Both the position numbers and the translations under genes were made by a program. The notes below the pieces were generated by a model that worked only from the letters and a program-made list of their open reading frames with translations, was not told where the DNA came from and searched no databases. A DNA stretch of 64,000 bases from an uncultured Roseobacter sp. (GTDB lineage Bacteria > Pseudomonadota > Alphaproteobacteria > Rhodobacterales > Rhodobacteraceae), in NCBI GenBank assembly GCA_947488305.1, contig CANKZM010000002.1:496001-560000 (forward strand), given 5' to 3'. This document shows positions 32,655 to 51,349 of the stretch, in pieces (within the stretch, counting starts at the first letter, position 1; each line of letters begins with the position of its first letter).

Positions 32655-32673
32655 GCATAATCCTGCAGTAAGT

Positions 32674-32687
32674 TGCAATATTTTGCA
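32674..32687. promoter_or_regulatory. candidate operator upstream of the DeoR-type gene
   Basis: TGCAA-TATT-TTGCA is a perfect 5-bp inverted repeat 19 bases upstream of the regulator start. Further TGCA motifs flank it (32654-32690). Position suggests autoregulation, but the arms are short and chance occurrence is possible. Confidence 0.35.
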
Positions 32688-32895: not shown

Positions 32896-33861
32896 TTGGC
32901 CGCTCGACAGCATGACAACGAACTCAGCCTGGCGACGCGCGCAGCGTGGCTGCACTATGGGGGCGGGCTCTCGCAGACCGATGTGGCCAAGCGGCTAAAC
33001 GTCACCAAGGTGAAAGCCCACAGGTTGATAAACAAAGCCAACCAGGACGGCGTGGTTAAAGTCAGTTTCGACGGAGAGATCGCGGAATGTGCCGCTCTGG
33101 AAATGCTGCTAAGCGAAAACTGTGGTCTCAGTTATTGTGAGGTCGTGCCGGATCTGGACGAAACCGGGTTGCCGGTCCGCGCTCTTGGCCTTGGCGGAGC
33201 GTCGTTCCTGAGCCGTGAAATTGCCAACACTGAAAACAAGGTAATTGGACTTGGCAATGGGCGCACGCTGAGCGCGTGTATCCGCAACATGGCGTCGACG
33301 TCCACGCCGAATACAAAATTCGTTTCCCTCATGGGGGGGCTGACGCGTAATTTTGCAGCCAATCCGCACGACGTGATGCACAGGCTCGCAGAGAAAACTG
33401 GCGCCGAAGCCTATTTCATGCCCGTTCCGTTCTTTGCCAATTCCAATGAGGACCGCGATGTCATGCTTGCGCAACGTGGTGTGCCCGAAGTCATGTCGAT
33501 GGCAGCAGGCGCGGATCTGAAATTCGTCGGTATCGGGACAGCGGACGACAATGCTCAGACGGTTCTGGCCGGGGTCATTACCCCGGAAAACATGGAGGCG
33601 ATACGCGCGCAGGGCGGCACTGGAGAGCTGATAGGGCATTTTTTCGACCTGGACGGCAATCCGGTCAACACGGAGCTTTCCGACCGCACATTGTCGATCG
33701 GGCTGGAGGACATGAAAACCGGCCGGGTCATCGCGGTCGCTGGGGGCGAAGACAAGATTAATTCAATTTGGGCGATCCTGAAGAGTGGTCTTCTGGACGG
33801 CCTCATTACCGACGAACGCACGGCAAAAACCCTGGTTCGTCAAACATCCATGGGAGGATAA
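32896..33861 (+). CDS. SorC/EryD-type sugar-binding transcriptional regulator
   Basis: About 321 aa. The N-terminal helix-turn-helix contains ARAAWLHYGGGLSQTDVAKR and LNVTKVKAHRLI, characteristic of the SorC family. The C-terminal sugar-binding domain has VIGLGNGRTLSACIRNM and KFVGIGTADDNAQ. No ATG is available near the start. TTG 32896 follows a GGGGGA at 5-base spacing and is preferred over TTG 32878. It heads the polyol operon, its stop (TAA) lying one base before the binding-protein ATG. The erythritol regulator EryD belongs to the same family; a phosphorylated polyol or ketose is the likely inducer. Confidence 0.9.
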   Translation: MAARQHDNELSLATRAAWLHYGGGLSQTDVAKRLNVTKVKAHRLINKANQDGVVKVSFDGEIAECAALEMLLSENCGLSYCEVVPDLDETGLPVRALGLGGASFLSREIANTENKVIGLGNGRTLSACIRNMASTSTPNTKFVSLMGGLTRNFAANPHDVMHRLAEKTGAEAYFMPVPFFANSNEDRDVMLAQRGVPEVMSMAAGADLKFVGIGTADDNAQTVLAGVITPENMEAIRAQGGTGELIGHFFDLDGNPVNTELSDRTLSIGLEDMKTGRVIAVAGGEDKINSIWAILKSGLLDGLITDERTAKTLVRQTSMGG

Positions 33862-33862
33862 T

Positions 33863-35308
33863 ATGCACGACAAAGAAAAACAGTTGGTGCAGTCATACAT
33901 GAACGGCAATATCAGCCGTCGGGGTATGCTGCGCGGTTTGGCATCTATGGGGGTAACTGCGGCAACTGCGAGCGTTCTTGTCAATGCGGCGGCAACAGAG
34001 GCACTTGCACAGAACGGCTTTGATTGGAAAAAGCACTCTGGCACGACCGTAAAGCTTCTTTTGAACCAGCACCCTTATGCCGACGCGATGATCGCCAATC
34101 TTGAGAACTTCAAGGCCTTGACCGGTATGGATGTGGTCTATGATATTTTCCCGGAAGACGTTTACTTCGACAAGGTGACCGCCGCGCTGTCGTCTGGATC
34201 CAGCGAGTACGACGCCTTTATGACCGGCGCTTACATGACCTGGACTTACGGCCCGGCGGGCTGGATCGACGACATGAACGAGTACATCAACGATCCTGCC
34301 AAGACCAATCCGGATTACGACTGGGAAGACATGCTGGAAGGCGTGCGCAACTCCTGCGCGTGGAACGGGCAACCCGGTGGTGCCTTGGGGTCAGACGACG
34401 CCAAGCAATGGTGTATCCCGTGGGGGTATGAGCAGAACAACCTGTCCTACAACGGACGGATGTTCAAAGAGGCGGGGCTGAGCGTTCCCAAGAACATCGA
34501 CGAGTTGGTTGCAACCGCTGCTGAGGCCAAGGCCAAAATCGACGGTACTTACGGCATCGGTGTGCGCGGGTCACGCTCCTGGGCGACGATCCACCCTGGG
34601 TTCCTCTCCGGCTACGCCAACTTCGGTGAGAAAGACCTGAACCTCGCGAGCGATGGCAAACTGTCCGCTGCGATGAACACAGATACGTCGCGCATGTTCC
34701 ACGAGAAGTGGGTTCAGATGATTCAGGAAAGTGGTGCGCCCGACTGGTCGACACACACTTGGTATCAGGCTGGCACTGATCTTGGGGCCGGTAAATCCGC
34801 CATGATTTTCGACGCGGATATTCTGGGGTACTTTATGAATGGCGGCGACAATGCCGAGGCAGGAAACCTCGAGTTTGCGCCATTCGCGGCCAACCCGGAT
34901 GCCGCGGCGCCGACACCAAACATCTGGATCTGGTCCTTAGCGATGGCGAGCGCTGGCAAACAGAAGGATGCAACCTGGTACTTCTTGCAATGGGCGTCAG
35001 GTCCGGAGCATGGGCTTTTTGGGGCAACGCAAATGGATTTTGTGAACCCAGTGCGCAAGTCTGTCTGGGCGGATGCGGGTTTCCGCGAGCGTCTGGACTC
35101 CAGCTATCCGGGCTATGTGGACATGCACGATCTGTCTGCACCGGGGGCAAAAATCCACTTTACGGCTCAGCCGCTCTTCTTTGACCTCACCACCGAATGG
35201 GCTGCAATGCTTCAGAAAATGGTGGCCAAAGAAGTGCCCGTCGACGAGGGACTTGGTCAGTTGGAAGACAGCGTGAATCGACAGCTGAAAGAAGCAGGCT
35301 TAGGCTGA
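33863..35308 (+). CDS. ABC transporter sugar/polyol-binding protein, Tat-type leader
   Basis: A 481-aa family-1 (MalE-like) periplasmic binding protein. The start at 33863 has GGGAGG just upstream. The n-region is long and carries NISRRGMLRGLASMGVTAA, a twin-arginine motif, with cleavage probably after ALA-Q. The mature part shows the two-lobe pattern with WTYGPAGWIDDMNEYIND and FFLQWASGPEHGL-like C-terminal-lobe segments. Export in folded form is inferred from the leader. It is the first structural gene of the importer; a strong RNA hairpin separates it from the permease genes. Confidence 0.9.
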   Translation: MHDKEKQLVQSYMNGNISRRGMLRGLASMGVTAATASVLVNAAATEALAQNGFDWKKHSGTTVKLLLNQHPYADAMIANLENFKALTGMDVVYDIFPEDVYFDKVTAALSSGSSEYDAFMTGAYMTWTYGPAGWIDDMNEYINDPAKTNPDYDWEDMLEGVRNSCAWNGQPGGALGSDDAKQWCIPWGYEQNNLSYNGRMFKEAGLSVPKNIDELVATAAEAKAKIDGTYGIGVRGSRSWATIHPGFLSGYANFGEKDLNLASDGKLSAAMNTDTSRMFHEKWVQMIQESGAPDWSTHTWYQAGTDLGAGKSAMIFDADILGYFMNGGDNAEAGNLEFAPFAANPDAAAPTPNIWIWSLAMASAGKQKDATWYFLQWASGPEHGLFGATQMDFVNPVRKSVWADAGFRERLDSSYPGYVDMHDLSAPGAKIHFTAQPLFFDLTTEWAAMLQKMVAKEVPVDEGLGQLEDSVNRQLKEAGLG

Positions 35309-35322
35309 CTTCAACTCAAAGT

Positions 35323-35348
35323 GTCCCACCCGTCATCGCGGGTGGGAC
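35323..35348 (+). promoter_or_regulatory. intercistronic stem-loop between binding protein and permease genes
   Basis: GTCCCACCCG-TCATCG-CGGGTGGGAC: a perfect 10-bp stem, mostly G/C, 15 bases after the binding-protein stop. No T-run follows, so it is probably not a full terminator. It more likely protects the upstream mRNA from 3' decay, giving more binding protein than permease, as in other importer operons. Confidence 0.7.
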
Positions 35349-35398
35349 GACCGCAAAGATGACCTCTACCGCACCCGCGGGATCAAAAGGCCTGCCCC

Positions 35399-36322
35399 AT
35401 GTCCACGCACACCGTTGATGCGCCGAAGAAGCGCAATTTTAAGATCAGCAAAAGGTATCTGCCCTATGTGCTGAGCCTGCCAGCTTTGCTTATGTGTATC
35501 GGCATCTTGATTCCCTTCTTTACCGCGGTGGCCTATTCGCTGCAGCGCTACAGGCTGTCTCAACCTTGGGCGCGCAAGTGGAATTGGGGCGAGAATTACC
35601 TGAACTTCATGACCGACCCGGCGTTCTGGAATACGCTCAAGGTCTCGTTGACTTACGCTTTTCTGACCGTCGGGGTCGAATTGCTGCTGGGGCTGGGCAT
35701 TGCGCTGCTGCTGCAAAAACGCACGCGCTTCAACAATTTCGTCTCAATCATGCTTTTGATGCCGCTGATGACGGCCCCGGCGCTGGCGTCGCTGATGTGG
35801 AAACTCATGACCAACCCGGGATTTGGTGTGCTGAGCTATTGGGCCACTTTGTTGGGCATTGAGGATATGAAGTGGGCGTCGGACCCTTCGACTGCGATGA
35901 TGACCGTCGTGATCGTGGATGTGTGGGTCTACACGCCGTTCATCATGATCCTGCTGCTGGCCGGTCTGCGGTCTCTGCCACGCCAACCTTTCGAGGCAGC
36001 CGAACTTGACGGAGTGCCGCGCCTGTTTGTGTTCTGGAAGATCACGCTGCCGATGCTGACACCTTTCCTTTTGACCGCCGTGTTGTTCCGGGTGATTGAA
36101 TCGATCCAACAGTTCGACATTATCTATGCAATGACCCAAGGCGGCCCCGGGGACAAATTGACGGTGTTCCAGGTTGAAGCCTATCTGAACTTCTTCCAAT
36201 CGACGAATGTGGGCCGCTCGGCAGCGCTGCTGATGATCCTCTGGCTGATCACCTACATCCTGTCGACGATATTCATCAAAAACTGGCTACGCCTGCGCGA
36301 ACGCGCTCGGGGCGAGGGGTAG
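35399..36322 (+). CDS. sugar/polyol ABC transporter permease, MalF type
   Basis: A 307-aa six-span permease. LPALLMCIGILIPFFTAVAY is the first span. The EAA loop is EAAELDGVPRLFVFWKITLP, with the conserved Gly, and docks on the ATPase dimer. It is spaced 90 bases from the binding-protein gene and 9 bases from the second permease gene. It forms a heterodimeric channel with the next product. Confidence 0.92.
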   Translation: MSTHTVDAPKKRNFKISKRYLPYVLSLPALLMCIGILIPFFTAVAYSLQRYRLSQPWARKWNWGENYLNFMTDPAFWNTLKVSLTYAFLTVGVELLLGLGIALLLQKRTRFNNFVSIMLLMPLMTAPALASLMWKLMTNPGFGVLSYWATLLGIEDMKWASDPSTAMMTVVIVDVWVYTPFIMILLLAGLRSLPRQPFEAAELDGVPRLFVFWKITLPMLTPFLLTAVLFRVIESIQQFDIIYAMTQGGPGDKLTVFQVEAYLNFFQSTNVGRSAALLMILWLITYILSTIFIKNWLRLRERARGEG

Positions 36323-36331
36323 GAGGCCGTC

Positions 36332-37189
36332 ATGCATAAAGCGAGCGTTTTGGAACGGACCCTGCGTGGCATTGCCCTGACATTGGTCATCTTCTTTTTC
36401 ATGTTCCCGATCTTCTGGATCTTCCTGATGTCGTTTCAAACCAACGAGACGATCTTGCGGGTGCCGCCATCCATGATCTTTGAGCCGACATTGACCAACT
36501 ACCGCTCGCTGATCTCCGGCACGCTGGAGGGCAGCACGGCCACCCTTGAAATCCGCTTCATGAGCAATTTGTACAATTCACTGTTTCTGTCGGTGACGTC
36601 GGTGACGGTCGGGTTGTTGCTTGGGGTCCCGGCGGCCTATGCCTTCGCCAAGTTGAAGTTTCGCGGGTCAGAAGACATTGCGTTTACTTTGCTGTCGTTC
36701 CGCTTCGCGCCGCCGCTTCTGGTGCTGTTGCCGCTGACCATCTACTTCCAGAAAATCGGCCTCGCCGATACCTACCTTGGGCTCATCTGGGTCTATCAGT
36801 TGATCGTCTTGCCTTTGATATTGTGGATCGTGCGCGGCTATTTCGAAGACATACCCAGCGATATCGAATACGCGCACCGCATCGCGGGCCACGGGTTCTG
36901 GTCTACTTTTACCAAGATTGCCTTGCCTCTGGCCGGACCAGGCATCGCGGCGGCAGGGCTGCTGGCGTTCATTTTTGCCTGGAACAACTTCATCTTTGCC
37001 TTGGTTCTGGCCTCGGCAGACAAGCAACCCGTCACGGTTGGGGCGCTGGCCTTTATCACGGCGTCCGGCATTAACTACGGACAGATTGCTGCAGGGATCA
37101 TGCTTTCAATTGCGCCGACCTTTGCCTTGGCGCTCTATGCACAACGCTATCTGGTCGAAGGCCTGTCGCTTGGTGCGGTGAAAGGATAG
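36332..37189 (+). CDS. sugar/polyol ABC transporter permease, MalG type
   Basis: A 285-aa six-span permease with MalG-type N-terminus (LVIFFFMFPIFWIFLMSFQT) and LGVPAAYAFAKLKFRG. Its EAA loop reads EYAHRIAGHGFWSTFTKIAL, so the usual EAA-x-x-D-G is replaced by EYA-HRIAG, a clear departure. A GGAGG ribosome-binding site precedes the ATG. A matched departure may exist in the partner ATPases, which are themselves unusual. Confidence 0.92.
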   Translation: MHKASVLERTLRGIALTLVIFFFMFPIFWIFLMSFQTNETILRVPPSMIFEPTLTNYRSLISGTLEGSTATLEIRFMSNLYNSLFLSVTSVTVGLLLGVPAAYAFAKLKFRGSEDIAFTLLSFRFAPPLLVLLPLTIYFQKIGLADTYLGLIWVYQLIVLPLILWIVRGYFEDIPSDIEYAHRIAGHGFWSTFTKIALPLAGPGIAAAGLLAFIFAWNNFIFALVLASADKQPVTVGALAFITASGINYGQIAAGIMLSIAPTFALALYAQRYLVEGLSLGAVKG

Positions 37190-37194
37190 TCCGA

Positions 37195-38307
37195 ATGTCT
37201 CTGAGTTTAACCGACATCAGAAAATCCTTCAAAGACGACACGGTTCTGGATGGTGTTTCCCTCGAGGTACCCACCGGCAAGACGTTGGTTCTGTTCGGCC
37301 CTTCCGGGGCAGGTAAAACCGTGCTGCTGCGATTAATCGCGGGGGTGATTGAACCGGACGCGGGCGTGGTCGAAATCGCGGGGCGCAATATGTCCGGTGT
37401 CGAACCGGAAGACAGGGGCATCGGCATGGCGTTCCAGAATTTCGCGCTTTTCCCGCACATGAGTGCGCTGGACAATATTGCGAGCCCCCTGACCGCGCAG
37501 AAGCAAAGCAAATCCGCCATTCAATCGGGCGTTCAGTCACTGGCGCGGCTTTTGAAGATCGAGCACGTGTTGGGTCACAAACCCAAGGAATTGTCGAACG
37601 GTCAAAAACAACGCACAGCGCTTGCCCGGGCACTGGCAGGTAAGCCGGAGGTCTTGCTGCTGGACGATCCTTTACGGAACGTCGACGCCAAGTTGCGGTT
37701 CGAGATGCGCCTTGAGCTGCCGCGCCTGATCAAGGACCAGAATGCGACGGTCATCTACGTGACACAGGATTACAAAGAAGCAATGGCCTTCGGGGACGAG
37801 ATCGCGGTGATTAATGACGGCCGGATCCAGCAAATTGGTACCCCTGAACAGGTGTACCTGACGCCAGCAAACACTGACATTGCACGGCTTTTTGGCGATC
37901 CGGTGATCAACCTGCTGGAAGTGACACCGCAAATGGGGGCGTCGGGCCCGTTCGTGGCGGTCTCGGATCAGCCGGTACCACTGCCTGCGAGCCATTCGGG
38001 CGACATCGATCGCCCCTGCATCCTGGGCCTGCGACCTGAGGCGTTGAGTTTTGCATCCCCAGAAACACCGGGCACGATCCCGATGACTGTCGAGACAGAG
38101 GCTCCACTCAATGAGAAAACAGTCACGCTTGCGGTCACAGCGCGAGGGCGGGAGATCATGCTGTCCCGACCTGCAGGCACTCCGGGACCGCGGTCTGGAC
38201 CCGCGCACATGGTGATCAATGCCAGCGCGGCTTTGCTTTTTGATCGTGCAACCGGGGAATTGATTCAAGGGACGACCGACGCCCAGGCGCAAGGGAAAGT
38301 GGCATGA
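37195..38307 (+). CDS. ABC transporter ATP-binding protein 1 (degenerate catalytic site), GlpS-like
   Basis: A 370-aa MalK-class ATPase with a C-terminal OB-like domain. Walker A GPSGAGKT (35-42) and the Q-loop Gln81 are normal. The Walker B reads LLLDDP, so the catalytic Glu is Asp158. The switch His is Gln191 (VTQDYKEA), and the signature is LSNGQ. These changes predict weak or no hydrolysis at its own site. It is followed with a 4-base overlap by a second ATPase gene, so the two presumably form a heterodimer, as with GlpS/GlpT of rhizobial glycerol importers (family knowledge). Confidence 0.9.
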   Translation: MSLSLTDIRKSFKDDTVLDGVSLEVPTGKTLVLFGPSGAGKTVLLRLIAGVIEPDAGVVEIAGRNMSGVEPEDRGIGMAFQNFALFPHMSALDNIASPLTAQKQSKSAIQSGVQSLARLLKIEHVLGHKPKELSNGQKQRTALARALAGKPEVLLLDDPLRNVDAKLRFEMRLELPRLIKDQNATVIYVTQDYKEAMAFGDEIAVINDGRIQQIGTPEQVYLTPANTDIARLFGDPVINLLEVTPQMGASGPFVAVSDQPVPLPASHSGDIDRPCILGLRPEALSFASPETPGTIPMTVETEAPLNEKTVTLAVTARGREIMLSRPAGTPGPRSGPAHMVINASAALLFDRATGELIQGTTDAQAQGKVA

Positions 38308-39431
38308 GTGAAACCAAGCTGCGCATCAGCAATATTGACAAATTTTACGGTGCCATCGATCACGGTGTCCATGCCGTCAAGAATGTATCCATGGATGTGG
38401 AGGACGGTGACATCGTCGCTCTTCTCGGTTCGTCCGGATGTGGAAAAACGTCGACGCTGCGCATGATCGCCGGGTTCGAGGAGGTCAGTCGGGGTAGCAT
38501 TTCAATCGCCGGTCGCGAGGTGCACATGTTGCCACCCGTCAAACGCAATGTCGCGATGGCGTTTGAAGGCTATTCGCTTTATCCGACGGTCACGGTGCGT
38601 GACAACATTGCATTCGCCCTGAAAAGCAGTGGCAAGCCTGCCGCCGAGGTGGCTGGAAAGGTCGAACAGATCGCAGCGATGCTGGAGATTTCGGACATTC
38701 TGGATCGTTATCCATCGTTTATCTCGGGCGGGCAGCAGCAGCGCGCCTCGCTTGCACGGGCCTTGATCCGAGAAGCGGACCTCTACCTTCTGGACGAACC
38801 GATGGGGCAACTGGAGCCGCAATTGCGCACGTTGCTACGGGGCCGGATCAAGTTTTACATCAAGGAGCGGGGACTGACCGCAATTCTCGTCACCCATGAT
38901 CAGACAGAGGCCAATGCCTTGGCGGACAAAATCGCGGTTATGGAAGATGGCGAGTTGCAGCAATTTGCCAGCCCGGATGAGATCAAGGAGGCACCGGCCA
39001 ACCTCTTCACCGGTACCTTCGTGGGCGAGCCGCCAATGAATGTCTTCCCGGCCAAGGCAAGATCCTCAGATCAGGCTTTGGTCTTTGACCTTCAGGATGG
39101 ATCCGAATTGAGTTTCCCGCGCTCGGTGTTTGCGCGCGACCTGCATGACCGGATCATGGCGCTGCAAAGTGTCATGTTGGGCGTGCGTCCCTACGCCGTG
39201 CAACGCAGTGAAACCGGCGCACAGGCGCGGGTACTGGCAAATCAGTGGCTTGGTGATCAAAGCCACATTGCAGCGGAGTTTGCCGGGGGCGCTTTGGTCC
39301 TTGTTGAGCATGACCGGGCTGCATTGTCCGAAGGGGATGCGATTACTGTCCACCTGGACCCCTCCGATCTGCACATCTTTGATCCCGCGTCTGGTGTTGC
39401 GGTTTCTCACGGAGCCAGTTTGGCAGGATGA
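38304..39431 (+). CDS. ABC transporter ATP-binding protein 2, GlpT-like
   Basis: A 375-aa MalK-class ATPase. Walker A GSSGCGKT (42-49), signature ISGGQ (140-144), Walker B YLLDEP with Glu165, and switch His198 (VTHDQTEA) are intact. The Q-loop Gln, however, is Glu88 (AMAFEGYSLYP), and the D-loop region reads MGQLEPQLR in place of the usual LSNLDAKLR. The C-terminal regulatory domain is present. It overlaps the preceding ATPase gene by 4 bases and the kinase gene by 4 bases. It probably provides the active hydrolysis site of the pair. Confidence 0.9.
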   Translation: MSETKLRISNIDKFYGAIDHGVHAVKNVSMDVEDGDIVALLGSSGCGKTSTLRMIAGFEEVSRGSISIAGREVHMLPPVKRNVAMAFEGYSLYPTVTVRDNIAFALKSSGKPAAEVAGKVEQIAAMLEISDILDRYPSFISGGQQQRASLARALIREADLYLLDEPMGQLEPQLRTLLRGRIKFYIKERGLTAILVTHDQTEANALADKIAVMEDGELQQFASPDEIKEAPANLFTGTFVGEPPMNVFPAKARSSDQALVFDLQDGSELSFPRSVFARDLHDRIMALQSVMLGVRPYAVQRSETGAQARVLANQWLGDQSHIAAEFAGGALVLVEHDRAALSEGDAITVHLDPSDLHIFDPASGVAVSHGASLAG

Positions 39432-40987
39432 GCCGGGATATCATCATAGGTATTGATGCTGGGACATCGGTCATCAAATCGGTAGCGTTTGACCTCTCAG
39501 GCCGCCAGCTCGACATGGCTTCCGTGCCAAATGCGTATACCTCGGGGCCCGGCGGTGCGGTGACGCAATCGCTGTCTCAAACCTGGCGTGATTGTGCGGC
39601 AACCTTGAGAGGCCTGGGCGAGCAAATCCCGGATTTACCCGCGCGGGTCGCAGCGATTTCCGTGACAGGGCAGGGCGATGGCACTTGGCTGGTTGGAAAA
39701 GACAATGCACCTGTCGGTGATGGCTGGCTATGGCTCGATGCACGTGGGGGCGCACTGGCAGAGACGCTGCGCAACCGCGATGATGACGTTGAGCGGTACC
39801 GTTCGACCGGCACAGGGCTCAACGCTTGTCAGCAAGGGGTCCAGCTGGCGCATATGAAGGCGAACTCGCCAGAGCAGCTCGACGCTGCGGAGTGCGCATT
39901 TCATTGTAAGGACTGGCTTTACCTGAACCTGACCGGGGTGCGTGCAACGGATCCTTCCGAGGCCTGTTTCACCTTTGGTAACTTCCGTACGCGAACATAC
40001 AGCGATGATGTCATACGGCTGCTGGGTTTGAAAAGTCATCAACACCTGCTCGCGCCGATATGCGACGGTACGGCGACCACCCATGGCTTGTCAGAGGCCG
40101 CAGCTGCGGAAACCGGGTTGCTTGCGGGCACACCCTGTTCGCTGGGATATGTGGATATCATCTGCACAACCTTGGGCGGGGGCGGGTATCTGCCGGGACA
40201 GGACACCGGATGCACGATCGTCGGAACCACCGGGGTCCATATCCGCTGCAAACCTGTGCCCGACGTTCATCTCAACCCCGAAGAGCGCACGGGGTATGTG
40301 ATGGTCATGCCAACCATTGGTCAAACTGCGCAATTGCAAACCAATATGGCGGGCACATTGAACATCGACTGGGTCTTGGATTTGGCCGCTGATGTCTGCA
40401 GCGCCGTGGGGGCTGATACAGAGCCTGCACAACTCATCGGTCGGGTCGAGCAATGGATGGCCGAAAGCCTGCCCGGCGGTCTGATCTTTCATCCCTATAT
40501 CTCAGAGGCGGGGGAACGCGGACCCTTCATTGACCACACCGCCCGTGCCAGCCTGATTGGCCTGTCGACCGCGCATCGGTTTGCGGATCTGGTTCGGGCG
40601 GCAATTGAAGGTCTGAGCATGGCGTCGCGGGACTGTTACGAGGCAATGGGGGGCGTGCCAGACCATGTCACCCTGACGGGTGGTGCCGCGCGTTCTGATT
40701 CTTTGCGTGCGACGCTGTCGGCGACACTGGGGGCATCGGTCCGCCGGTCCACCCGAGCCGAGGCCGGAGCCGCTGGCGCAGCCATGATGGCGGCGGTCGC
40801 CAATGGCATCTATCCGGATATGGAGACCTGCGTTCAGGAATGGGTAACGCCTTTGCTGACAGAAGCCGAAGCGCCGGATGCGACCTTGGCCGCGCTCTAT
40901 GATCGGCTCTATCCGGAGTACGTTGCCTCGCGTGAAACGGTCAGGCCGATATGGGCAACTCTAGCACAGCGAAGGAGTGTTCTGTGA
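39428..40987 (+). CDS. FGGY-family carbohydrate kinase, erythritol-kinase (EryA)-like
   Basis: A 519-aa kinase. The phosphate-binding motif is IIIGIDAGTSVIKSVAFDLS; the substrate-domain segment ISVTGQGDGTWLVG and the C-terminal adenosine motif VTLTGGAARSDSLRATLS are typical FGGY features. Length and N-terminus are like EryA of Brucella and rhizobia, which phosphorylates erythritol to L-erythritol 4-phosphate. The EryB-like dehydrogenase and SorC regulator in the same operon support a polyol substrate. Which polyol (C4 or C5) is uncertain. Overlaps the ATPase gene by 4 bases. Confidence 0.85.
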   Translation: MSRDIIIGIDAGTSVIKSVAFDLSGRQLDMASVPNAYTSGPGGAVTQSLSQTWRDCAATLRGLGEQIPDLPARVAAISVTGQGDGTWLVGKDNAPVGDGWLWLDARGGALAETLRNRDDDVERYRSTGTGLNACQQGVQLAHMKANSPEQLDAAECAFHCKDWLYLNLTGVRATDPSEACFTFGNFRTRTYSDDVIRLLGLKSHQHLLAPICDGTATTHGLSEAAAAETGLLAGTPCSLGYVDIICTTLGGGGYLPGQDTGCTIVGTTGVHIRCKPVPDVHLNPEERTGYVMVMPTIGQTAQLQTNMAGTLNIDWVLDLAADVCSAVGADTEPAQLIGRVEQWMAESLPGGLIFHPYISEAGERGPFIDHTARASLIGLSTAHRFADLVRAAIEGLSMASRDCYEAMGGVPDHVTLTGGAARSDSLRATLSATLGASVRRSTRAEAGAAGAAMMAAVANGIYPDMETCVQEWVTPLLTEAEAPDATLAALYDRLYPEYVASRETVRPIWATLAQRRSVL

Positions 40988-42030
40988 CTGCTCGGGAAAT
41001 CGCAATCATTGGTGATCATTTCATCTTGCCGGAGGTTTTCGAAGCAGAACTTCGCAGGGCTTGCACCGGCACGGAAATACGTTGTCGAGTGTCACAAAAC
41101 GACTGGCCGAACAGCCCGGTGGTACATGGCTACCATGGGGGTGAAGACGCTCCGATCAAGGAGTATCTGGGTGATTTTGACGAGGTGGCTGCCTTCATCG
41201 GCGATGCCGAGGTGCTGGTCATGCACCAGTCTCCGGTCACGGCAGGGATGCTGGATCAACTGCCCAATCTGCGCCTGATAGCCTGCTCGCGCGGCGGGCC
41301 CGTAAATGTCGACATCGAAGCGGCAAGAAGCCGTGATGTCATCGTGGTGCGGGCACCCGGGCGAAACGCGTCCGCCGTGGCCGAATTTACCATCGGTGCC
41401 ATACTGACCGAAACCCGAAAGATCCGGGTCGGCCATGAGGCGCTGCGCGCAGGCAACTGGCGAGGTGATCTGTACCGGGCAGACACAACCGGACGCGAAC
41501 TGAATGAAATGACCGTTGGCGTCGTCGGGTATGGGAAGATCGGGACCCGCGTGACGAAGCTGCTGCGGGCATTCGGTACACGTGTGCTGGTGTGCGATCC
41601 ATACGTGCAGCTTGACCCGGAAGATGCGCAAGCCGGTGTTGAACAGGTTTCCTTGGCTAAGTTGCTGCGCGACAGCGATGTGGTCAGCCTCCATCCCCGG
41701 GTTACCGAAGAAACCACGCAAATGATCAACAAGGAGACGCTTGCGCAGATGAAGCCGGAGGCACTTTTGATCAACACCGCGCGGGGACCGCTCTGCAATT
41801 ACGATGATCTGTATGAAGCACTGCGCGATGGGGTGATCGGATCGGCGATGCTGGAAACATTTGCGATTGAACCCACGCCTCCGGATTGGCCGCTTCTACA
41901 ACTCGACAATGTAACACTGACGCCGCATATCGCCGGAGCCTCGGTGCGCACAACGACGTTTGCGGCGGAGCAACTTGCAGAAGATGTGCGCCGATACTTC
42001 GATGGCGAACCCCTATTGAATAAATGTTGA
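40984..42030 (+). CDS. D-isomer-specific 2-hydroxyacid dehydrogenase family protein
   Basis: A 348-aa NAD-dependent dehydrogenase, SerA/GyaR-like. Rossmann motif VGVVGYGKIGTRVTKLL, catalytic Arg region NTARGPLCNYDDL, Glu in METFAIEPTPP-type context (LETFAIEP), and the catalytic His in LTPHIAGASVRTT. I chose GTG 40984: it overlaps the kinase stop as GTGA and has GAAGGAG 7 bases upstream; the ATG at 40951 lies well inside the kinase gene. In this operon it could reduce glyoxylate or oxidise a 2-hydroxyacid produced from aldolase-derived glycolaldehyde; this is inference. Confidence 0.9.
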   Translation: MTAREIAIIGDHFILPEVFEAELRRACTGTEIRCRVSQNDWPNSPVVHGYHGGEDAPIKEYLGDFDEVAAFIGDAEVLVMHQSPVTAGMLDQLPNLRLIACSRGGPVNVDIEAARSRDVIVVRAPGRNASAVAEFTIGAILTETRKIRVGHEALRAGNWRGDLYRADTTGRELNEMTVGVVGYGKIGTRVTKLLRAFGTRVLVCDPYVQLDPEDAQAGVEQVSLAKLLRDSDVVSLHPRVTEETTQMINKETLAQMKPEALLINTARGPLCNYDDLYEALRDGVIGSAMLETFAIEPTPPDWPLLQLDNVTLTPHIAGASVRTTTFAAEQLAEDVRRYFDGEPLLNKC

Positions 42031-42040
42031 GGATTATCAC

Positions 42041-42700
42041 GTGAGTGAAAAGGAACTACGCAAGGAAGTTGTCGCTGCTTATCAGGAGCTTGGGCGCGAG
42101 GGGATGAACAAAGGCGCGTCCGGCAATGTGTCGGCACGTATGGGAAAGCACATGCTGATCACCCCATCGGGCATTCCATCCGCGTTGATGGAGCCCGCAC
42201 AGGTGGCCAAACTTCGTATCGACGACGACTCCGGGGAGTGGGATGGACCCTGCAAACCCTCTTCGGAATGGCGGTTTCACAGGGATATCTTGCGGTCGAA
42301 GACTGATGCAGGGGCCGTCGTTCATGCCCATGCACCGTTTTCAACCATTCTTGCAATCCTGCGCAAACCGATCCCGGCGGTCCATTACATGATGGCGGCT
42401 TTCGGCACGACCGAAATCAAGGTGGCGGGCTACAAGACCTACGGCACGCCTGAATTGTCGCAGGCGGTGATCAAGGCTATGGAAGGTGCGAATGGCTGCC
42501 TGATGGCCAATCACGGGATGGTGGTTGCAGGGCCGAACATGACCCGCACGATGTGGCTGGCGGGGGAGTTGGAACTGCTGGCGAGCCAATATTACCACAG
42601 CCTGCTCGCAGGCAAGCCGCACATACTCTCCAAAGCCGAAATAGATGAAACGGCGAAGTCTTTCGAAGGATATGGTCCACAAGAGGTTGAGAAAGACTGA
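42041..42700 (+). CDS. class II aldolase, L-fuculose-phosphate aldolase (FucA)-like
   Basis: A 219-aa zinc-dependent aldolase. Zinc ligands are visible: His95 and His97 in VVHAHAPF and His158 in MANHGMVVAG. Glu76 (SSEWRFH) matches the catalytic acid. NKGASGNVSARMG and TPSGIP are the phosphate-binding segments. The start is GTG 42041, with GAGGA 8 bases upstream. Family members cleave ketose 1-phosphates into DHAP and an aldehyde, so this enzyme probably splits the product of the EryB-like dehydrogenase. Its stop overlaps the next ATG as TGATG. Confidence 0.9.
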   Translation: MSEKELRKEVVAAYQELGREGMNKGASGNVSARMGKHMLITPSGIPSALMEPAQVAKLRIDDDSGEWDGPCKPSSEWRFHRDILRSKTDAGAVVHAHAPFSTILAILRKPIPAVHYMMAAFGTTEIKVAGYKTYGTPELSQAVIKAMEGANGCLMANHGMVVAGPNMTRTMWLAGELELLASQYYHSLLAGKPHILSKAEIDETAKSFEGYGPQEVEKD

Positions 42701-44205
42701 TGACGGAGGCGGTCGACCTCCTTGTTATTGGCGGCGGCGTGAATGGCGCCGGAATAGCGCGGGATGCGGCCGGGCGCGGGTTGTCCGTGGTTTTGTGCGA
42801 AAAAGATGATCTGGCCCAGGGAACGTCCTCTCGGTCGGGCAAGCTGGTGCATGGTGGTTTGCGCTACCTCGAATACTATGAATTCCGTCTGGTGCGTGAA
42901 GCGTTGATCGAGAGAGAGGTTCTGTTGAACGCTGCACCTCATATCATCTGGCCAATGCGGTTTGTGCTGCCACACAGCCCAATGGACCGACCCGCGTGGC
43001 TGGTACGGTTGGGCCTGTTTCTCTACGATCATTTGGGAGGGCGAAAACGCCTGCCCGGGACGCGCACCCTTGATCTGCTGCGGGACCCGGAAGGCGCTCC
43101 GATCCTCGCAAAATATACAAAAGGGTTCGAATATTCTGACTGTTGGGTGGATGACGCGCGGCTTGTCGTCCTGAATGCATTGGGCGCAAAAGACAAGGGC
43201 GCCGAAATCCTGCCGCGCATGGCCTGTGCTTCCCTGCATGTGGAAGACGGGGTTTGGATTGCAAGTCTGAAGAGTACGAATGGAAACGCCGAAAGATCGT
43301 TGCGTGCCCGTGCGGTGGTCAACGCTGCAGGTCCTTGGGTGAATGACATTATCGGGCGCGTGGCCGGGACAAATTCAAATCGGGCTGTACGTCTTGTCAA
43401 AGGAAGCCACATCGTCGTGCCAAAATTCTGGGAAGGGCAGCAAGCCTATCTGATCCAGAACGACGACAAGCGCGTGATCTTCATCAACCCCTACGAAGGG
43501 GACAAGGCACTGATCGGCACCACGGATATCAGCTTTGAGGGTTCAGCGGATGAGGTGCAAGCGGACCAAAGTGAGGTCGATTACCTCGTGGCAGCCGTAA
43601 ACCGGTATTTCAAACAAAAGTTGCATTCGGAGGATGTGCTGGAGACCTTTTCCGGCGTGCGCCCACTTTTCGATGATGGTCAAGGCAATCCAAGCGCGGT
43701 GACGCGGGACTACGTGCTTGATCTCGACAACGCGCGCGGTGCGCCGCTTCTCAATATTTTCGGGGGCAAGATAACGACGTACCGCAAGCTTGCTGAGCAT
43801 GCGGTAGAAGAGCTGAAAGCAGTGTTTCCCCAAATGGCCCCCTGCTGGACCGCGAATGAGCCATTGCCGGGCGGGGACATGCCCGATGCGGATTTTGAGA
43901 GCTTTCTGGGCCGTGTGCACGAAGATTACCCGTGGTTGCCGCGCGCTTTGGCAAAACATTATGCGCGTCTCTATGGCACGCGGATGACCCAGATCATTGG
44001 CAACGCAACGTCACTGGACGGGATGGGTCATCAGTTTGGCCATCTGCTTTTTGAAGCTGAGGTTGCCTATCTCACGTCACATGAGTGGGCCACGAGCGCG
44101 GAGGATATTCTGCAACGAAGAACGAAACACGGGTTGCATCTCTCGGCGGAAGAACAAGACGCACTTGAAAGGTGGTTTGATGACACAATTGCCGAATCCG
44201 CCTGA
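42700..44205 (+). CDS. FAD-dependent polyol-phosphate dehydrogenase, GlpD/EryB-like
   Basis: A 501-aa flavoprotein. The FAD motif is DLLVIGGGVNGAGIARDAAG, followed by GTSSRSGKLVHGGLRYLEYY, the GlpD-family signature, and NIFGGKITTYRKLAEHAVEE. It feeds electrons to quinone at the inner membrane. Members oxidise glycerol 3-phosphate (GlpD) or L-erythritol phosphate (EryB). The length and the association with an EryA-like kinase and SorC regulator favour a polyol-phosphate substrate over plain glycerol phosphate. The true GlpD cannot be excluded from sequence alone. Coupled to both neighbours by overlaps. Confidence 0.9.
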   Translation: MTEAVDLLVIGGGVNGAGIARDAAGRGLSVVLCEKDDLAQGTSSRSGKLVHGGLRYLEYYEFRLVREALIEREVLLNAAPHIIWPMRFVLPHSPMDRPAWLVRLGLFLYDHLGGRKRLPGTRTLDLLRDPEGAPILAKYTKGFEYSDCWVDDARLVVLNALGAKDKGAEILPRMACASLHVEDGVWIASLKSTNGNAERSLRARAVVNAAGPWVNDIIGRVAGTNSNRAVRLVKGSHIVVPKFWEGQQAYLIQNDDKRVIFINPYEGDKALIGTTDISFEGSADEVQADQSEVDYLVAAVNRYFKQKLHSEDVLETFSGVRPLFDDGQGNPSAVTRDYVLDLDNARGAPLLNIFGGKITTYRKLAEHAVEELKAVFPQMAPCWTANEPLPGGDMPDADFESFLGRVHEDYPWLPRALAKHYARLYGTRMTQIIGNATSLDGMGHQFGHLLFEAEVAYLTSHEWATSAEDILQRRTKHGLHLSAEEQDALERWFDDTIAESA

Positions 44206-45226
44206 CGATTTCGAGGCGTTGTGCCGGATGTCGGCCAGCTTCGGATCAAACCCAATGCATATTCAGGGTGCCGGTGGCAATTCCTCGATCAAAGATGACG
44301 CGGTAATGTGGATCAAGGCATCGGGAACGCTTCTGGCGGATGCGCTGACTAAAGAGGTTTTCGTAGCCACGGATTTGGATCGTATTCGTCAAGCTCTGGA
44401 TGCAAATGACCCCGTTGCGGACCAACCTGCCCAATTCCTGTTTCCCGGGGGCAGCGGGTTGCGCCCCTCGATCGAAACCAGCCTGCACGCTGTTTTCCCG
44501 CACCGCGTTGTCCTGCACACCCATTGCATCCACACGTTGGCTTTGGCGGTTCGGAAGGACGCCCGCGAACGGCTCTTGGAAAAACTAGAAGGCTTTGACT
44601 GGGCTTTTGTGGGATATACAAAACCCGGAGCAAATCTGGCCCGAAGCGTCCAAAGCGTGTTGACGCCTGAGATAGATGTGATCGTGCTGGGAAATCACGG
44701 CCTGATCGTTGCCGGTGAAACGGTTGAGGAAGTGCACTCCCTGCAAAACCGTGTGCACGAGGCGCTGCATTGCGATCCGCATGTGGCGGATGTGCCTGAC
44801 CTGAGGGCATTGAAACATTGCGCTCAAGGAACCGACTACGAGCTGCCGGATGATCTGTCTTTGCATCAACTGGGGCTTGACGCAGGACGGGTTACGCAAG
44901 TCACCGAGGGGAGTTTATATCCCGATCACGTGATTTTTTGCGGGGTCGCCGTGGCTTCGTTGAAGCAGGATGAAACCGTTGAAAACGCCGTGCAGCGACT
45001 GACGCAAAGCGGCGCACCCGCGCCGGTTTGGCTTATCGTCCCCGGTGGCGGGGTCATTGTGCGAAAGGGCGCAAGTGGACCTGCCCGTATCATGATGCGT
45101 TGTCTTGCGGATGTGATGGCGCGGATACCGGGTGATGCTGAGCTTTCGTATCTGAGCTCAGATCAAAACAACGAGCTTCTGGATTGGGATGCCGAGAAAT
45201 ACCGGCAGAAGCTGAATGCCAACTGA
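44180..45226 (+). CDS. second class II aldolase/adducin family protein with C-terminal extension
   Basis: A 348-aa protein; ATG 44180 overlaps the dehydrogenase gene by 26 bases, with AAAGGTGG upstream. The aldolase core (1-215) has HIQGAGGNSSIKDD, Glu99 (PSIETSLH), His113 and His115 (VLHTHCIHTLAL) and LGNHGLIVAG. A further 130 residues of unknown function follow. The core resembles the aldolase half of RhaD-type fusion proteins. It is quite different in sequence from the other aldolase in the operon, so the two probably act on different intermediates or on different entry substrates. Confidence 0.85.
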   Translation: MTQLPNPPDDFEALCRMSASFGSNPMHIQGAGGNSSIKDDAVMWIKASGTLLADALTKEVFVATDLDRIRQALDANDPVADQPAQFLFPGGSGLRPSIETSLHAVFPHRVVLHTHCIHTLALAVRKDARERLLEKLEGFDWAFVGYTKPGANLARSVQSVLTPEIDVIVLGNHGLIVAGETVEEVHSLQNRVHEALHCDPHVADVPDLRALKHCAQGTDYELPDDLSLHQLGLDAGRVTQVTEGSLYPDHVIFCGVAVASLKQDETVENAVQRLTQSGAPAPVWLIVPGGGVIVRKGASGPARIMMRCLADVMARIPGDAELSYLSSDQNNELLDWDAEKYRQKLNAN

Positions 45227-46478
45227 CATCTTTGTGGGATTGGATATCGGGACCTCGGGCGCCCGGGCCATCGCGATATCCAAGGCCGGTAATGTGCTCG
45301 CGTCGGGCGCTTCCGCTATGAGCGATCACAGTGCGGATCACAGGGATCCAATAGGATGGCTTGGCGCAGCGAAAGCCGCCTTGCATCAGGTTTGTGTAAA
45401 TTTTGAACGAAGCAAACTGCGTGCAATCTGTGTCGATGGAACCTCTGGAACGATGATCCCAATCGACGCCAAGGGAACACCATTGGCATCGGGGCTGATG
45501 TACAATGATCCTTGTACTGACAAGGAAATGCTCGCCCGTATTGCCGACCATGCTCCGGCAACCAGTGCCGCACATGGCGCGACAAGTGGCCTGGCCAAGC
45601 TGTTGCGGTTTCAAGACTTGCCCGATGTCGCGCAAGTGGTCCATCAGGCAGATTGGATCGCAGGCAATCTTTGCGGGATCTATGCGTCCGATGACAACAA
45701 CGCCCTGAAGACCGGGTATGATCCCGTGACCGGGTGTTGGCCGGACTGGATTGAGAAGACAGGCGCGCGGGCATCATTGCTACCGATTGTTTACACCCCA
45801 GGCACGCCGCTCGCACCACTTTGTGCCGAGGTCGCGAAAACCTTTGGGCTACCGGAAGCAACACAAGTACTGGCGGGAACAACGGATGGATGTGCCGCGT
45901 TTCTGGCAACGGGTGCAGCGGAGCCAGGGGATGGGGTGACTTCCCTGGGTACGACCTTGGTGCTGAAACTCTTGTCAGATAAGCCGATCTTTGATCCGGA
46001 AAGCGGCCTCTACAGTCATCATATCATGGGGCTCTGGCTGGCGGGCGGGGCGTCAAACACGGGCGGGGGTGTTTTACTTGAGCACTTCACGTCAGAGCAG
46101 ATTGATGCTTTGAGCGGTTTGATCAGACCAGAGAACCCCTTGAATCTTGGCTACTACCCTTTGTGCCACCCGGGCGAGCGCTTTCCGATTGCCGATCCGC
46201 ACCTGCCGCCCAGAATGACACCACGCCCTGCTAAAGATGAGGATTTCCTGCAGGCCATGTTGGAGGGCATCGCTGATGTGGAGGCGCTGGGGTACCAGAA
46301 ACTGCTGGATCTAGGTGGGCCCAAGTTGGCTTCGGTGCGCTCTGTTGGTGGCGGTGCCTTGAATGCGACCTGGACGCGCATCCGAGAAGGAAAACTGAGT
46401 GTCCCGCTGATCCGCCCTGACAATACTCAGGCGGCATATGGCGCGGCAGTCCTTGCGCGATTTGGCTTTTCCGGATGA
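45216..46478 (+). CDS. second FGGY-family carbohydrate kinase, ribulokinase/xylulokinase-like
   Basis: A 420-aa kinase, short for the family. FVGLDIGTSGARAIAISKAG is the phosphate-1 motif, and ICVDGTSGTMIPIDAKGTPL is like the D-ribulose/xylulose kinase branch. VRSVGGGALNATWTRIREGK is the C-terminal adenosine motif. It overlaps the second aldolase by 11 bases and the phosphatase by 4 bases. The two are probably a functional pair: phosphorylation of a ketose followed by cleavage. Clearly not a recent duplicate of the EryA-like kinase. Confidence 0.88.
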   Translation: MPTDIFVGLDIGTSGARAIAISKAGNVLASGASAMSDHSADHRDPIGWLGAAKAALHQVCVNFERSKLRAICVDGTSGTMIPIDAKGTPLASGLMYNDPCTDKEMLARIADHAPATSAAHGATSGLAKLLRFQDLPDVAQVVHQADWIAGNLCGIYASDDNNALKTGYDPVTGCWPDWIEKTGARASLLPIVYTPGTPLAPLCAEVAKTFGLPEATQVLAGTTDGCAAFLATGAAEPGDGVTSLGTTLVLKLLSDKPIFDPESGLYSHHIMGLWLAGGASNTGGGVLLEHFTSEQIDALSGLIRPENPLNLGYYPLCHPGERFPIADPHLPPRMTPRPAKDEDFLQAMLEGIADVEALGYQKLLDLGGPKLASVRSVGGGALNATWTRIREGKLSVPLIRPDNTQAAYGAAVLARFGFSG

Positions 46479-47311
46479 CGCTTTGCTACGACACGGTTGA
46501 TAGCCTTTGGGAGCGATATGACGCGTTTCTGGTCGATCAGTTCGGTGTCTTGATGAGCGGCAGCGGACCCTTTCACGGTGCAGCAGACGCATTGTCTCAG
46601 TTGGGCAAGCGAAACAAGCCGACGATCATCCTATCCAATTCGGGTAAAAGATCAGAACCCAATTGCGCACGCCTCGTAAAAAACGGTTTCGGTCGCGGCG
46701 ATTTCCTGACTGTGCTGACGTCGGGCGAAATTGCTCGTGTTTTTATCCTGAACAATTTGGGCCGTTCGATCCCGCGCGGTGGAAAGGTTGTCGTTCTGAT
46801 ACGGAATGGAGATGATGCCCCGCTTGATGGCGTCGATCTCCAACAAACTGACGATACTCAGGAAGCCGATCTGCTATTGATTGTTAGCCGCGACCCGACG
46901 CGACAAATGTCCGCCTATGGTGCCACGCTCAAAGAGTTAGCAGCGCGCAACGTTCCTTGCCTTTGCCTGAACCCGGACCTGATGATGCTTACACCCGAGG
47001 GGCTGATGGCGTCGGCAGGACGGATCGCGCAGCAATACCAGCAGCTGGGGGGCCCCGTTCGTTGGTTTGGAAAGCCACATGCAATGATCTATGACCGGGC
47101 GAAAAAGATGTTGGGTTCGATTGCCGCGGAACGCATTCTGTGTGTGGGCGACAGCCTTTCGCACGACATCAAGGGTGGGCGAGATGCCGGGTGCAAAACA
47201 GCGCTGGTTCGCACAGGTGTTCATGCGGAGCTATCTGACGATGACCTTGCCGCAGAGGTTTTGGCAACAGGGGTGACGCCTGATCATTTTCTGAGGGCAT
47301 TCAGCCTTTGA
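46475..47311 (+). CDS. HAD-superfamily class IIA hydrolase (TIGR01459-like)
   Basis: A 278-aa phosphatase-type protein. The nucleophile motif is YDAFLVDQFGVLMSG, where the usual DxD is DQF as in TIGR01459. Motif II is ILSNSGKRS, and GKPHAMIYDRAKK with CVGDSLSHDIKGGRDAG supplies the Lys and motif IV Asp residues. It would dephosphorylate a small sugar phosphate, possibly to relieve toxic accumulation of intermediates. Last gene of the operon, overlapping the kinase by 4 bases. Confidence 0.88.
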   Translation: MTLCYDTVDSLWERYDAFLVDQFGVLMSGSGPFHGAADALSQLGKRNKPTIILSNSGKRSEPNCARLVKNGFGRGDFLTVLTSGEIARVFILNNLGRSIPRGGKVVVLIRNGDDAPLDGVDLQQTDDTQEADLLLIVSRDPTRQMSAYGATLKELAARNVPCLCLNPDLMMLTPEGLMASAGRIAQQYQQLGGPVRWFGKPHAMIYDRAKKMLGSIAAERILCVGDSLSHDIKGGRDAGCKTALVRTGVHAELSDDDLAAEVLATGVTPDHFLRAFSL

Positions 47312-47372: not shown

Positions 47373-48542
47373 CTATCTGATGATCGACTTCGCAAACCAG
47401 ACAACCGTGCCGAGCAAAACGCCCCAAAATGCGCCGCTGATACCAAAAAGCGTCATGCCGCTGCCCGCTATCAGGAAGGTCAGTGCTGGCGCTTCGAGCT
47501 GTTCCATGTCGCTAAAGGCAGCAGAAATCGAAGCCACGAACGCGGGAATGAGCGCAAGCCCGGCCACCGCCGTGATCAGTGCAGCAGGGGCAAGGCTGGC
47601 AAGCGATGTGACACTGGCAGCCGCGAATGCAAGGGCGACATAAGCAATCCCTGAGATGACGGCCGCCCAATACCGCACCGACGGGTCGCGTCCGGCATCT
47701 TCTCCTGCCATCATGGCCGCCGTGATCGCCGACATATTGACCGGAACTGCGCCGAATGGTGCTATCAATGTGCTGACGAGCCCTGTCGTTCGGATCATCG
47801 AAGACCGGTCCACACGATAGTTGTTGAGCTCCAAAACAGCGATGCCTGGGATGTTCTGGCCCGCCATGGTCACGAGGTATAGCGGCAACGAAACCGAGAC
47901 CGCGGATTGTAAGGTGAATATGGGCCTGATGGGTTCCATGTCAGGGAGCAAACTTACCGGTGGGAGCATCGCATCACCCGGCATCTCGACCGCGAAAAAC
48001 AGTACAAGAAGGCAGGCAATCACCGCAAATGGCATTGCGGCAAGCCGATGCCAAGAAAGTCCAATGAGCCACGCGGCCAAAACCGGCATTATCAGGCCCG
48101 GTATGGTCCCGAGTGCAGGGGCAGGGGCAAGACAGAGTTTAAGAAGAACTCCGGCCAGTAGGGCGGTTGCGATCGGCTTGGGAATTGACGCGACGATCTT
48201 GCCAAGCATCGGGACAAGTCCGGTCACCAGTATGAACCCACCGCACATAATCATCGCCCCTACCGCCTCGGCAAACCCGCCGGGAAGCGCTGCGGTTGAC
48301 GCAAGAAAGGCCGCGCCCGGCGTTGACCAGGCAACGGCAGCGGGAATTCTTGTGGCCATGGGCAACCACACACTGCAGATGCCCATACCGATCGTCGCAA
48401 AGAACAGGCCCGTCGCAGCCTGCGCTTCGGACGCGCCCATTGCGGTAATCCCCGCGAGAACGATGGCAAAAGATGCCGCATACCCGACAAAGGCCGCCAG
48501 CAGGCCCATATAGAATGAGGAAACAGTCAGGTCTCTTATCAT
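47373..48542 (-). CDS. BenE-family benzoate/H+ symporter-like permease
   Basis: A 389-aa polytopic permease of about twelve spans. The FVGYAASFAIVLAGITAMGA N-terminus and TGLVSTLIAPFGAVPVNMSA segment are BenE-family hallmarks; BenE proteins move benzoate or related aromatic acids with protons. No aromatic-ring degradation gene is nearby, so the substrate is open. It converges on the polyol operon with 61 bases between stops and no clear terminator. It lies 102 bases downstream of the GlcD-like FAD oxidase gene in the same direction. Confidence 0.87.
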   Translation of the reverse strand: MIRDLTVSSFYMGLLAAFVGYAASFAIVLAGITAMGASEAQAATGLFFATIGMGICSVWLPMATRIPAAVAWSTPGAAFLASTAALPGGFAEAVGAMIMCGGFILVTGLVPMLGKIVASIPKPIATALLAGVLLKLCLAPAPALGTIPGLIMPVLAAWLIGLSWHRLAAMPFAVIACLLVLFFAVEMPGDAMLPPVSLLPDMEPIRPIFTLQSAVSVSLPLYLVTMAGQNIPGIAVLELNNYRVDRSSMIRTTGLVSTLIAPFGAVPVNMSAITAAMMAGEDAGRDPSVRYWAAVISGIAYVALAFAAASVTSLASLAPAALITAVAGLALIPAFVASISAAFSDMEQLEAPALTFLIAGSGMTLFGISGAFWGVLLGTVVWFAKSIIR

Positions 48543-48644
48543 GTTCGGGATTTTCTATTCCGGTCTGCCCAGGCTGACTGTGGATCAGTTTTCACAGAGG
48601 TGCCAGAGGTTGCGTGCGACCGGTTGTGTATCGCTCTCGGCGCC

Positions 48645-50057: not shown

Positions 50058-50124
50058 TCAGTTTATACCCTTCACCATTATCAGCGCACCCAAGTGACGG
50101 CGTCCTGGCATCATTCATGCAAGC

Positions 50125-50189: not shown

Positions 50190-50251
50190 CGAACCTCACA
50201 GACCAAGGTCATCTCTGCGACCAATAGAGAGGAAAAAACGCAAATGCGTCC

Positions 50252-51286: not shown

Positions 51287-51308
51287 CTGCCCTCCCTCTG
51301 GCCAAATC

Positions 51309-51332: not shown

Positions 51333-51349
51333 GGTATACGGCGCGCGCC

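Follow-up and report, generated by a model that had tools for sequence, protein, structure and literature searches.

Positions 32,896–47,311 of a 64,000 nt stretch of contig CANKZM010000002.1 (positions 496,001–560,000; hereafter the window), from the assembly GCA_947488305.1 of an uncultured Roseobacter sp., hold a thirteen-gene operon with the order eryD-mptABCDE-eryA-rbtA-fucA1-eryB-lalA-rbtB-rbtC. This order is that of the first 13 of the 17 genes in the erythritol/adonitol/L-arabitol locus of Sinorhizobium meliloti, and the operon is proposed, with a probability of roughly 0.6, to import ribitol and L-arabitol and to feed them into central metabolism by a five-step scheme. An earlier note on this DNA had described a thirteen-gene polyol operon with an unassigned pathway. 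Its gene content and order were confirmed by open reading frame (ORF) and family checks, but the pathway is not unassigned: genetic work on adonitol and L-arabitol use in S. meliloti has described this gene set (Geddes et al. 2013; PMC3599248), and this type of pentitol locus is already known.

A probable pentitol locus of the Sinorhizobium meliloti type

All thirteen genes are co-directional on the plus strand, and in family scans both importer ATPases were UgpC-like. The near-continuous spacing pointed out in the earlier note is real, as 11 of the 12 junctions are overlaps or gaps of 1 to 10 bases, and the sole wider one (90 bases) separates the binding protein gene from that of the first permease. 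Start codons were chosen at 33863 (binding protein), 40984 (RbtA) and 44180 (LalA), all downstream of the starts in the ORF list. The genes are as follows, with amino acid identities measured against S. meliloti strain Ak57, not Rm1021 (FAD, flavin adenine dinucleotide):

32896–33861, plus strand: EryD-like sugar-binding transcriptional regulator (PF04198); 58.8% to EryD
33863–35308, plus strand: MptA-like solute-binding protein; 75% and 87% to MptA, in two pieces
35399–36322, plus strand: MptB-like permease; 79%
36332–37189, plus strand: MptC-like permease; 85% and 66%, in two pieces
37195–38307, plus strand: MptD-like ATPase; 67%
38304–39431, plus strand: MptE-like ATPase; 68%
39428–40987, plus strand: EryA-like polyol kinase (FGGY); 57% to EryA, and tree
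40984–42030, plus strand: RbtA-like enzyme of the D-2-hydroxyacid dehydrogenase fold; 63%
42041–42700, plus strand: FucA1-like class II aldolase, accessory; 51%
42700–44205, plus strand: EryB-like FAD polyol-phosphate dehydrogenase; 69%, and tree
44180–45226, plus strand: LalA-like enzyme of the class II aldolase fold, proposed L-xylulose-1-phosphate 4-epimerase (or aldolase); 43.7% to LalA
45216–46478, plus strand: RbtB-like FGGY kinase, proposed D-ribulokinase; 58%
46475–47311, plus strand: RbtC-like HAD-IIA (TIGR01459) protein, proposed ketopentose-1-phosphate phosphatase; 44% and 47%, in two pieces

In a scan that covered these proteins except LalA, none of the curated NCBIfam cut-offs was reached by the EryA-like kinase, RbtA, the FucA-like aldolase or RbtB, and a promoter and terminator scan gave site counts no higher than in shuffled sequence.

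The search for the same gene order that the earlier note had suggested gave a positive answer. All thirteen genes occur in identical order in the S. meliloti Ak57 record, followed by a gene for an EryC-type isomerase, a DeoR regulator gene, tpiB and rpiB, while a Gemmobacter plasmid record carries the first 11 in order and a partial rbtB at the record edge. Both records were found in plasmid searches using the first kinase and the second aldolase as queries; rbtC and some of the mpt genes are unannotated in Ak57 and were recovered by translated search. A nucleotide search of plasmids returned just six records, with short pieces of eryB or eryA. The Ak57 record (L016, CP090106.1) is labelled pSymB despite a length of 3.72 Mb, and the matches to mptA, mptC and rbtC in it are each split in two, perhaps through sequencing errors or decay. 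The primary genetics of the S. meliloti locus was reportedly published by Geddes and Oresnik in 2012; the Mpt substrates are restated in PMC10433430.

The likeness to the S. meliloti locus extends to all 13 genes, in the same order and at 44–87% identity over the aligned Ak57 pieces, with the importer (66–87%) among the best-kept parts. The difference lies at the end of the locus, where S. meliloti has eryC, eryR, tpiB and rpiB, and these four are absent from the window locus; the earlier note was right that the erythritol isomerase genes eryC, tpiB and rpiB are missing there. Compared with the cut-offs used in PMC3599248, the window proteins are above the limit for EryA (57% against 46%), EryB (69% against 65%), EryD (59% against 44%), MptA (75% over a 435-column piece, against 56%), RbtA (63% against 50%), RbtB (58% against 51%) and RbtC (44–47% against 40%). 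Judged by gene content and order, the locus fits the third of the categories set up by Geddes et al. 2013. The members of that category, in Bradyrhizobium BTAi1 and ORS278, Acidiphilium and Verminephrobacter (PMC3599248 Table 2), share EryA, EryB, EryD, MptA, LalA, RbtA, RbtB and RbtC with the window and lack EryC, whereas the window, judged by its nearest named loci, represents a Roseobacter-like lineage and has a single 13-gene run that includes fucA. Two Roseobacter species in the same study differ from the window in being listed with EryC and TpiB. The erythritol loci of Brucella and Rhizobium leguminosarum (PMC3599248) have EryA, EryB and EryD in common with the window, but they use an EryEFG transporter, carry EryC and TpiB, and are without MptA, LalA and RbtABC.

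Proposed front-end chemistry and pathway

The earlier note had taken EryA and EryB for an erythritol-type front end, and in trees both proteins do group with erythritol-type enzymes. In the EryA tree (39 rows) the window protein lies among the Ery kinases, within a starred set of seven rows of the roseobacter type. Two of these rows are short stretches of the same genus; the four others and the window show no eryC at the locus, with only 3.3 kb shown downstream in L030. A similar seven-row set is seen in the EryB tree (40 rows). The FAD enzyme scores 838 bits against an NCBIfam glycerol-3-phosphate dehydrogenase cut-off of 352, yet it groups with the EryB-type proteins, and the GlpD of the same genome groups with three other low-identity rows. 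Both trees were built by a quick method with a long outgroup row, and only close groupings are relied upon. A glycerol operon was considered and rejected, as glpD- and glpK-like genes lie elsewhere in the genome (G000:C1:381710-384701) and EryB falls apart from GlpD.

In the erythritol pathway, EryA forms L-erythritol-4-phosphate, EryB forms L-3-tetrulose-4-phosphate and EryC is a racemase, as given in a figure legend of PMC11508834; the accessible text of PMC11005471 contains no passage on Ery enzymes. Projection bookkeeping finds the L-erythritol-4-phosphate end in ribitol and L-arabitol, while it is absent from xylitol and D-arabitol (the second ends of the latter two were compared by hand), and oxidation next to the phosphate gives D-ribulose-1-phosphate and L-xylulose-1-phosphate, which are C4 epimers. 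This stereochemical prediction agrees with the substrates reported for S. meliloti, and the two converging substrates envisaged in the earlier note are very probably ribitol and L-arabitol.

In the proposed scheme, MptABCDE would import both pentitols under EryD control, as in the homologous, genetically tested system, and EryA, by homology, would phosphorylate their L-erythro ends to give L-ribitol-5-phosphate and L-arabitol-5-phosphate. By the known chemistry of EryB, the carbon adjoining the phosphate would then be oxidised to yield D-ribulose-1-phosphate and L-xylulose-1-phosphate, and ketopentose 1-phosphates are probably the true intermediates. LalA may epimerise L-xylulose-1-phosphate at C4 to D-ribulose-1-phosphate, from which RbtC would strip the C1 phosphate before RbtB phosphorylates C5, producing D-ribulose-5-phosphate. 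FucA could provide an optional side exit to dihydroxyacetone phosphate (DHAP) and glycolaldehyde. Entry into the pentose phosphate pathway requires a phosphate on C5. A D-ribulokinase that follows an earlier kinase would be pointless unless a phosphate were taken off first, and this is the job proposed for RbtC. The evidence leans slightly towards such a transfer of phosphate from C1 to C5 by RbtC and RbtB, and is evenly balanced on whether LalA is an epimerase rather than an aldolase. No published title or abstract opening describing a ketopentose-1-phosphate phosphatase/kinase route was found among the titles and abstract openings searched.

RbtB is closest to SePSK and AtXK-1 (best E-value 5e-95, residues 5–419). 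PMC4880283 reports D-ribulose kinase activity for SePSK and shows that D8, T11 and D221 matter; of the RbtB counterparts, T13 and D224 are conserved in all 87 relatives compared and D10 in 86, the remaining one having a gap. RbtB has the sequence features of a SePSK-type D-ribulose kinase and is a putative D-ribulokinase. In RbtC the nucleophile Asp, the motif II Ser/Thr, the Lys and the two residues of the acidic pair are conserved in 82, 83, 83, 82 and 82 of 83 sequences, respectively.

The lalA-rbtB-rbtC module in other genomes

A LalA profile scan of named genome contigs confirmed 560 stretches, of which the best 80 were kept; 54 of these are flanked by 9 kb or more on each side and comprise 27 loci of the window type, 25 of a second type and two that are neither. 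Among the 27 window-type loci, EryA and RbtA are present in all, MptA in 26, EryB in 25, RbtB and RbtC in 19 each, EryC in 17, TpiB and RpiB in 15 each, and FucA in nine. Across 149 order-level genomes, LalA (E-value up to 1e-40) was detected in 17, and RbtB (up to 1e-60) in the same 17, with lalA adjoining rbtB in every one, while the other 132 have neither. The probability of two sets of 17 coinciding by chance is about 1e-22 if genomes are independent and about 7e-10 by genus (7/72), both values being weakened by relatedness. The rbtC gene lies beside lalA-rbtB in 16 of 16 neighbourhoods examined, as well as in the window. Among the 76 of the 80 loci with 1.5 kb or more downstream, ten lack an rbtB close to lalA; the genomes of nine of these ten were searched (L075 excluded), and every one has RbtB elsewhere with RbtC next to it. 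The three genes travel as a module.

The second-type loci show the module behind a different set of genes. All 25 carry lalA, rbtB and rbtC, with a DeoR regulator in 24 and a sugar epimerase gene in 23, and EryA, EryB and RbtA were each found in none of the 25. This 'independent' locus of Mesorhizobium has only the lalA-rbtB-rbtC module in common with the window, its front end consisting of a DeoR regulator, another FGGY kinase, another importer and the epimerase in place of Mpt-EryA-EryB-RbtA. The one epimerase tested, from Mesorhizobium jarvisii (L068:3124-4017), is nearly identical to the M. loti L-ribulose 3-epimerase 3vyl, for which PMC8167858 (Table 2) gives relative activities of 100% on L-ribulose, 42% on L-xylulose, 24% on D-tagatose and 20% on D-ribulose. 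The starting sugar of second-type loci is probably L-ribulose or L-xylulose, and since these loci draw on the same three genes, L-xylulose-1-phosphate is the likely common intermediate; a linear epimerase-phosphatase-kinase sequence would be the simplest reading. The position of an L-ribulose 3-epimerase beside a kinase, an importer and the module suggests the natural pathway of this enzyme. Elsewhere the module is combined with genes of the rhamnose-isomerase type (L014, L081 and L095), and 15 of the 16 order neighbourhoods have a third arrangement, rbtC-lalA-rbtB, with importer genes on the opposite strand in 14 of the 15. The third-arrangement loci are L115–L129, where the genes lie about 6–10 kb into each, and a GntR-like gene was noted by eye in two of them.

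A broader, tentative proposal, which we hold at somewhat less than even odds, is that lalA-rbtB-rbtC is a portable module which, behind different front ends, salvages ketopentose 1-phosphates by shifting their phosphate from C1 to C5. It would combine an unusual HAD phosphatase and a D-ribulokinase with a 4-epimerase of the class II aldolase fold that acts on L-xylulose-1-phosphate, and its front ends would be EryA/EryB (ribitol and L-arabitol), an epimerase plus kinase (L-ribulose/L-xylulose), and others. If true, the module solves by dephosphorylation and rephosphorylation what the erythritol pathway solves with three isomerases, and the Mesorhizobium L-ribulose 3-epimerase gains a physiological setting. 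Three genes known from mutant genetics would become a testable enzyme sequence, acting on L-xylulose-1-phosphate, D-ribulose-1-phosphate and D-ribulose, and because the module is seen in three or more genomic settings, a single series of assays would give many loci an assignment. Ribitol and L-arabitol are plant sugar alcohols, and S. meliloti is a root-nodule bacterium.

Several observations weigh against the five-step scheme or its parts. At 43.7% identity, LalA is below the 49% cut-off of PMC3599248 and, taken literally, would be scored as absent; that value is a search threshold hand-set for 19 genomes, the class is defined here by gene content and order, and the genome has a single LalA match at E-values up to 1e-40, placed between eryB and rbtB. 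The LalA fold is that of a class II aldolase, with FucA, RhaD and AraD not separated by fold comparison and the C-terminal part (about residues 200–348) barely covered by the matches, and the aldolase Glu and three His are kept in 102 of 102 relatives. RbtA, with its Arg/Glu/His triad in 42 of 42 relatives, is a polyol-specific member of the front end and is left without a step. A second Asp two residues after the nucleophile is canonical in HAD phosphatases, and at that position (residue 23) RbtC proteins have Phe in 67 of 83 cases, Trp in 16 and Asp in none; RbtC is a HAD-fold protein, but given this loss the proposed phosphatase activity is not safe. Loci L036 and L037 have lalA and rbtB without rbtC, and RbtC is unmatched in one of the two genomes and has a match of only 28% in the other. 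The 25 second-type loci are almost all from Mesorhizobium and do not amount to 25 independent events, while for the second-type kinase no NCBIfam family was hit and the one structure match is unassigned, so that its 1-phosphate product is assumed. Finally, the operons of L048 and L051 are without eryB, which adjoins eryC elsewhere in those genomes, and eryB is missing from L066 (12,094 bases), whose metagenome-assembled genome gave no EryB match either. Because of these three loci, RbtA or another enzyme may carry out the third step in some relatives, and because of the L066 genome both the estimate for the ketopentose 1-phosphates and the overall confidence were set lower. L066 is a natural case in which to ask whether RbtA may stand in for EryB.

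The LalA features also bear on an alternative in which LalA cleaves L-xylulose-1-phosphate and FucA cleaves D-ribulose-1-phosphate, both to DHAP and glycolaldehyde, the two-carbon product being processed by RbtA or oxidases. In its favour, besides the aldolase fold and the fully kept site of LalA, the window locus carries fucA, whose product has a complete Glu and three-His site in 17 of 17 relatives; when the two sequences were compared, LalA also matched the aldolase part of an annotated bifunctional rhamnulose-1-phosphate aldolase/dehydrogenase (27% over 194 columns, 54 bits), and a GlcD-like protein is encoded nearby (48645–50057). Yet fucA was reported to be unnecessary for erythritol, adonitol and L-arabitol in S. 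meliloti (PMC3599248) and is present in 9 of the 27 fully flanked loci of the window type, making FucA-like cleavage, which the earlier note had favoured, doubtful as the main route, and dual cleavage gives no role to the D-ribulokinase-like protein and the HAD protein, whose link to lalA holds in 17 of 17 genomes. It is considered unlikely. The identity of the active-site acidic residue, Glu or Asp, was tried as a discriminator and is not decisive, the aldolase half of the annotated rhamnulose-1-phosphate enzyme having Asp. In Azospirillum brasilense p5, a LalA relative (42%; L018:9998-11071) adjoins a gene with an NTP-transferase domain among polysaccharide genes, and no rbtB or rbtC match was found in the 21 kb around it.

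Returning to the ribitol and L-arabitol assignment, the true substrate could be a different polyol that has an L-erythro end, or else a deoxy or longer alditol, ribitol and L-arabitol then being by-substrates. Drift is seen in EryA and LalA (57% and 44% to S. meliloti), the substrates in the lineage of the window are deduced from sequence, and elsewhere the module operates behind other front ends; against this, the importer is so well kept and the gene order is unchanged, and such a substrate is regarded as very unlikely.

Homologues of erythritol genes elsewhere in the genome

A search of the whole genome with the S. meliloti EryC query gave no match, whereas the same query matched in 7 of 14 genomes. 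Among five near genomes of the same type (L028, L029, L031, L032 and L033), EryC was unmatched in four, and the match in L033 lies off-locus. Homologues of TpiB (61–62%) and RpiB (59%) are present on contig C8 in another gene group, the TpiB homologue, at 62% at most, being below the 69% TpiB cut-off of PMC3599248. EryR is not in the window locus, and no genome-wide search for it was made. As far as can be judged from these matches, the known erythritol route is incomplete in the genome, and the operon would represent the pentitol side of a known locus, here in a roseobacter-like lineage and in a genome where EryC was not found. The earlier note had held that its view would fail if the kinase and dehydrogenase fell inside characterised glycerol or erythritol clades with isomerases encoded elsewhere: the two do group with erythritol enzymes, and TpiB and RpiB homologues lie elsewhere, but EryC was not found.

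These results bear on the possibility that the operon serves erythritol, with the isomerases elsewhere in the genome. Apart from the grouping of EryA and EryB, it is consistent with the TpiB (61%) and RpiB (59%) homologues lying beside a gene of the dihydroxyacetone-kinase family on C8, and a by-pass is conceivable in which RbtC frees erythrulose and the C8 kinase and a DerI-like isomerase convert it to erythrose-4-phosphate. We regard it as very unlikely, given the lack of an EryC match here and in four of the five near genomes, and the importer genes that the C8 group has nearby for itself. In that group (G000:C8:56000-75999; L026:14101-17140) the dihydroxyacetone-kinase family gene adjoins those of the RpiB/DerI-like and TpiB-like isomerases, with the importer genes close by. 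The RpiB-like protein scores 228 bits against a cut-off of 240 for D-erythrulose-4-phosphate isomerase, and C8 may encode an erythrulose-type route in the same genome.

Minus-strand genes border the operon on either side, at 30721–32678 upstream and 47373–51409 downstream. The upstream group includes a DeoR/GlpR-like regulator (31899–32678, minus strand), and the downstream group a BenE-type transporter and the GlcD-like protein (48645–50057), both on the minus strand.

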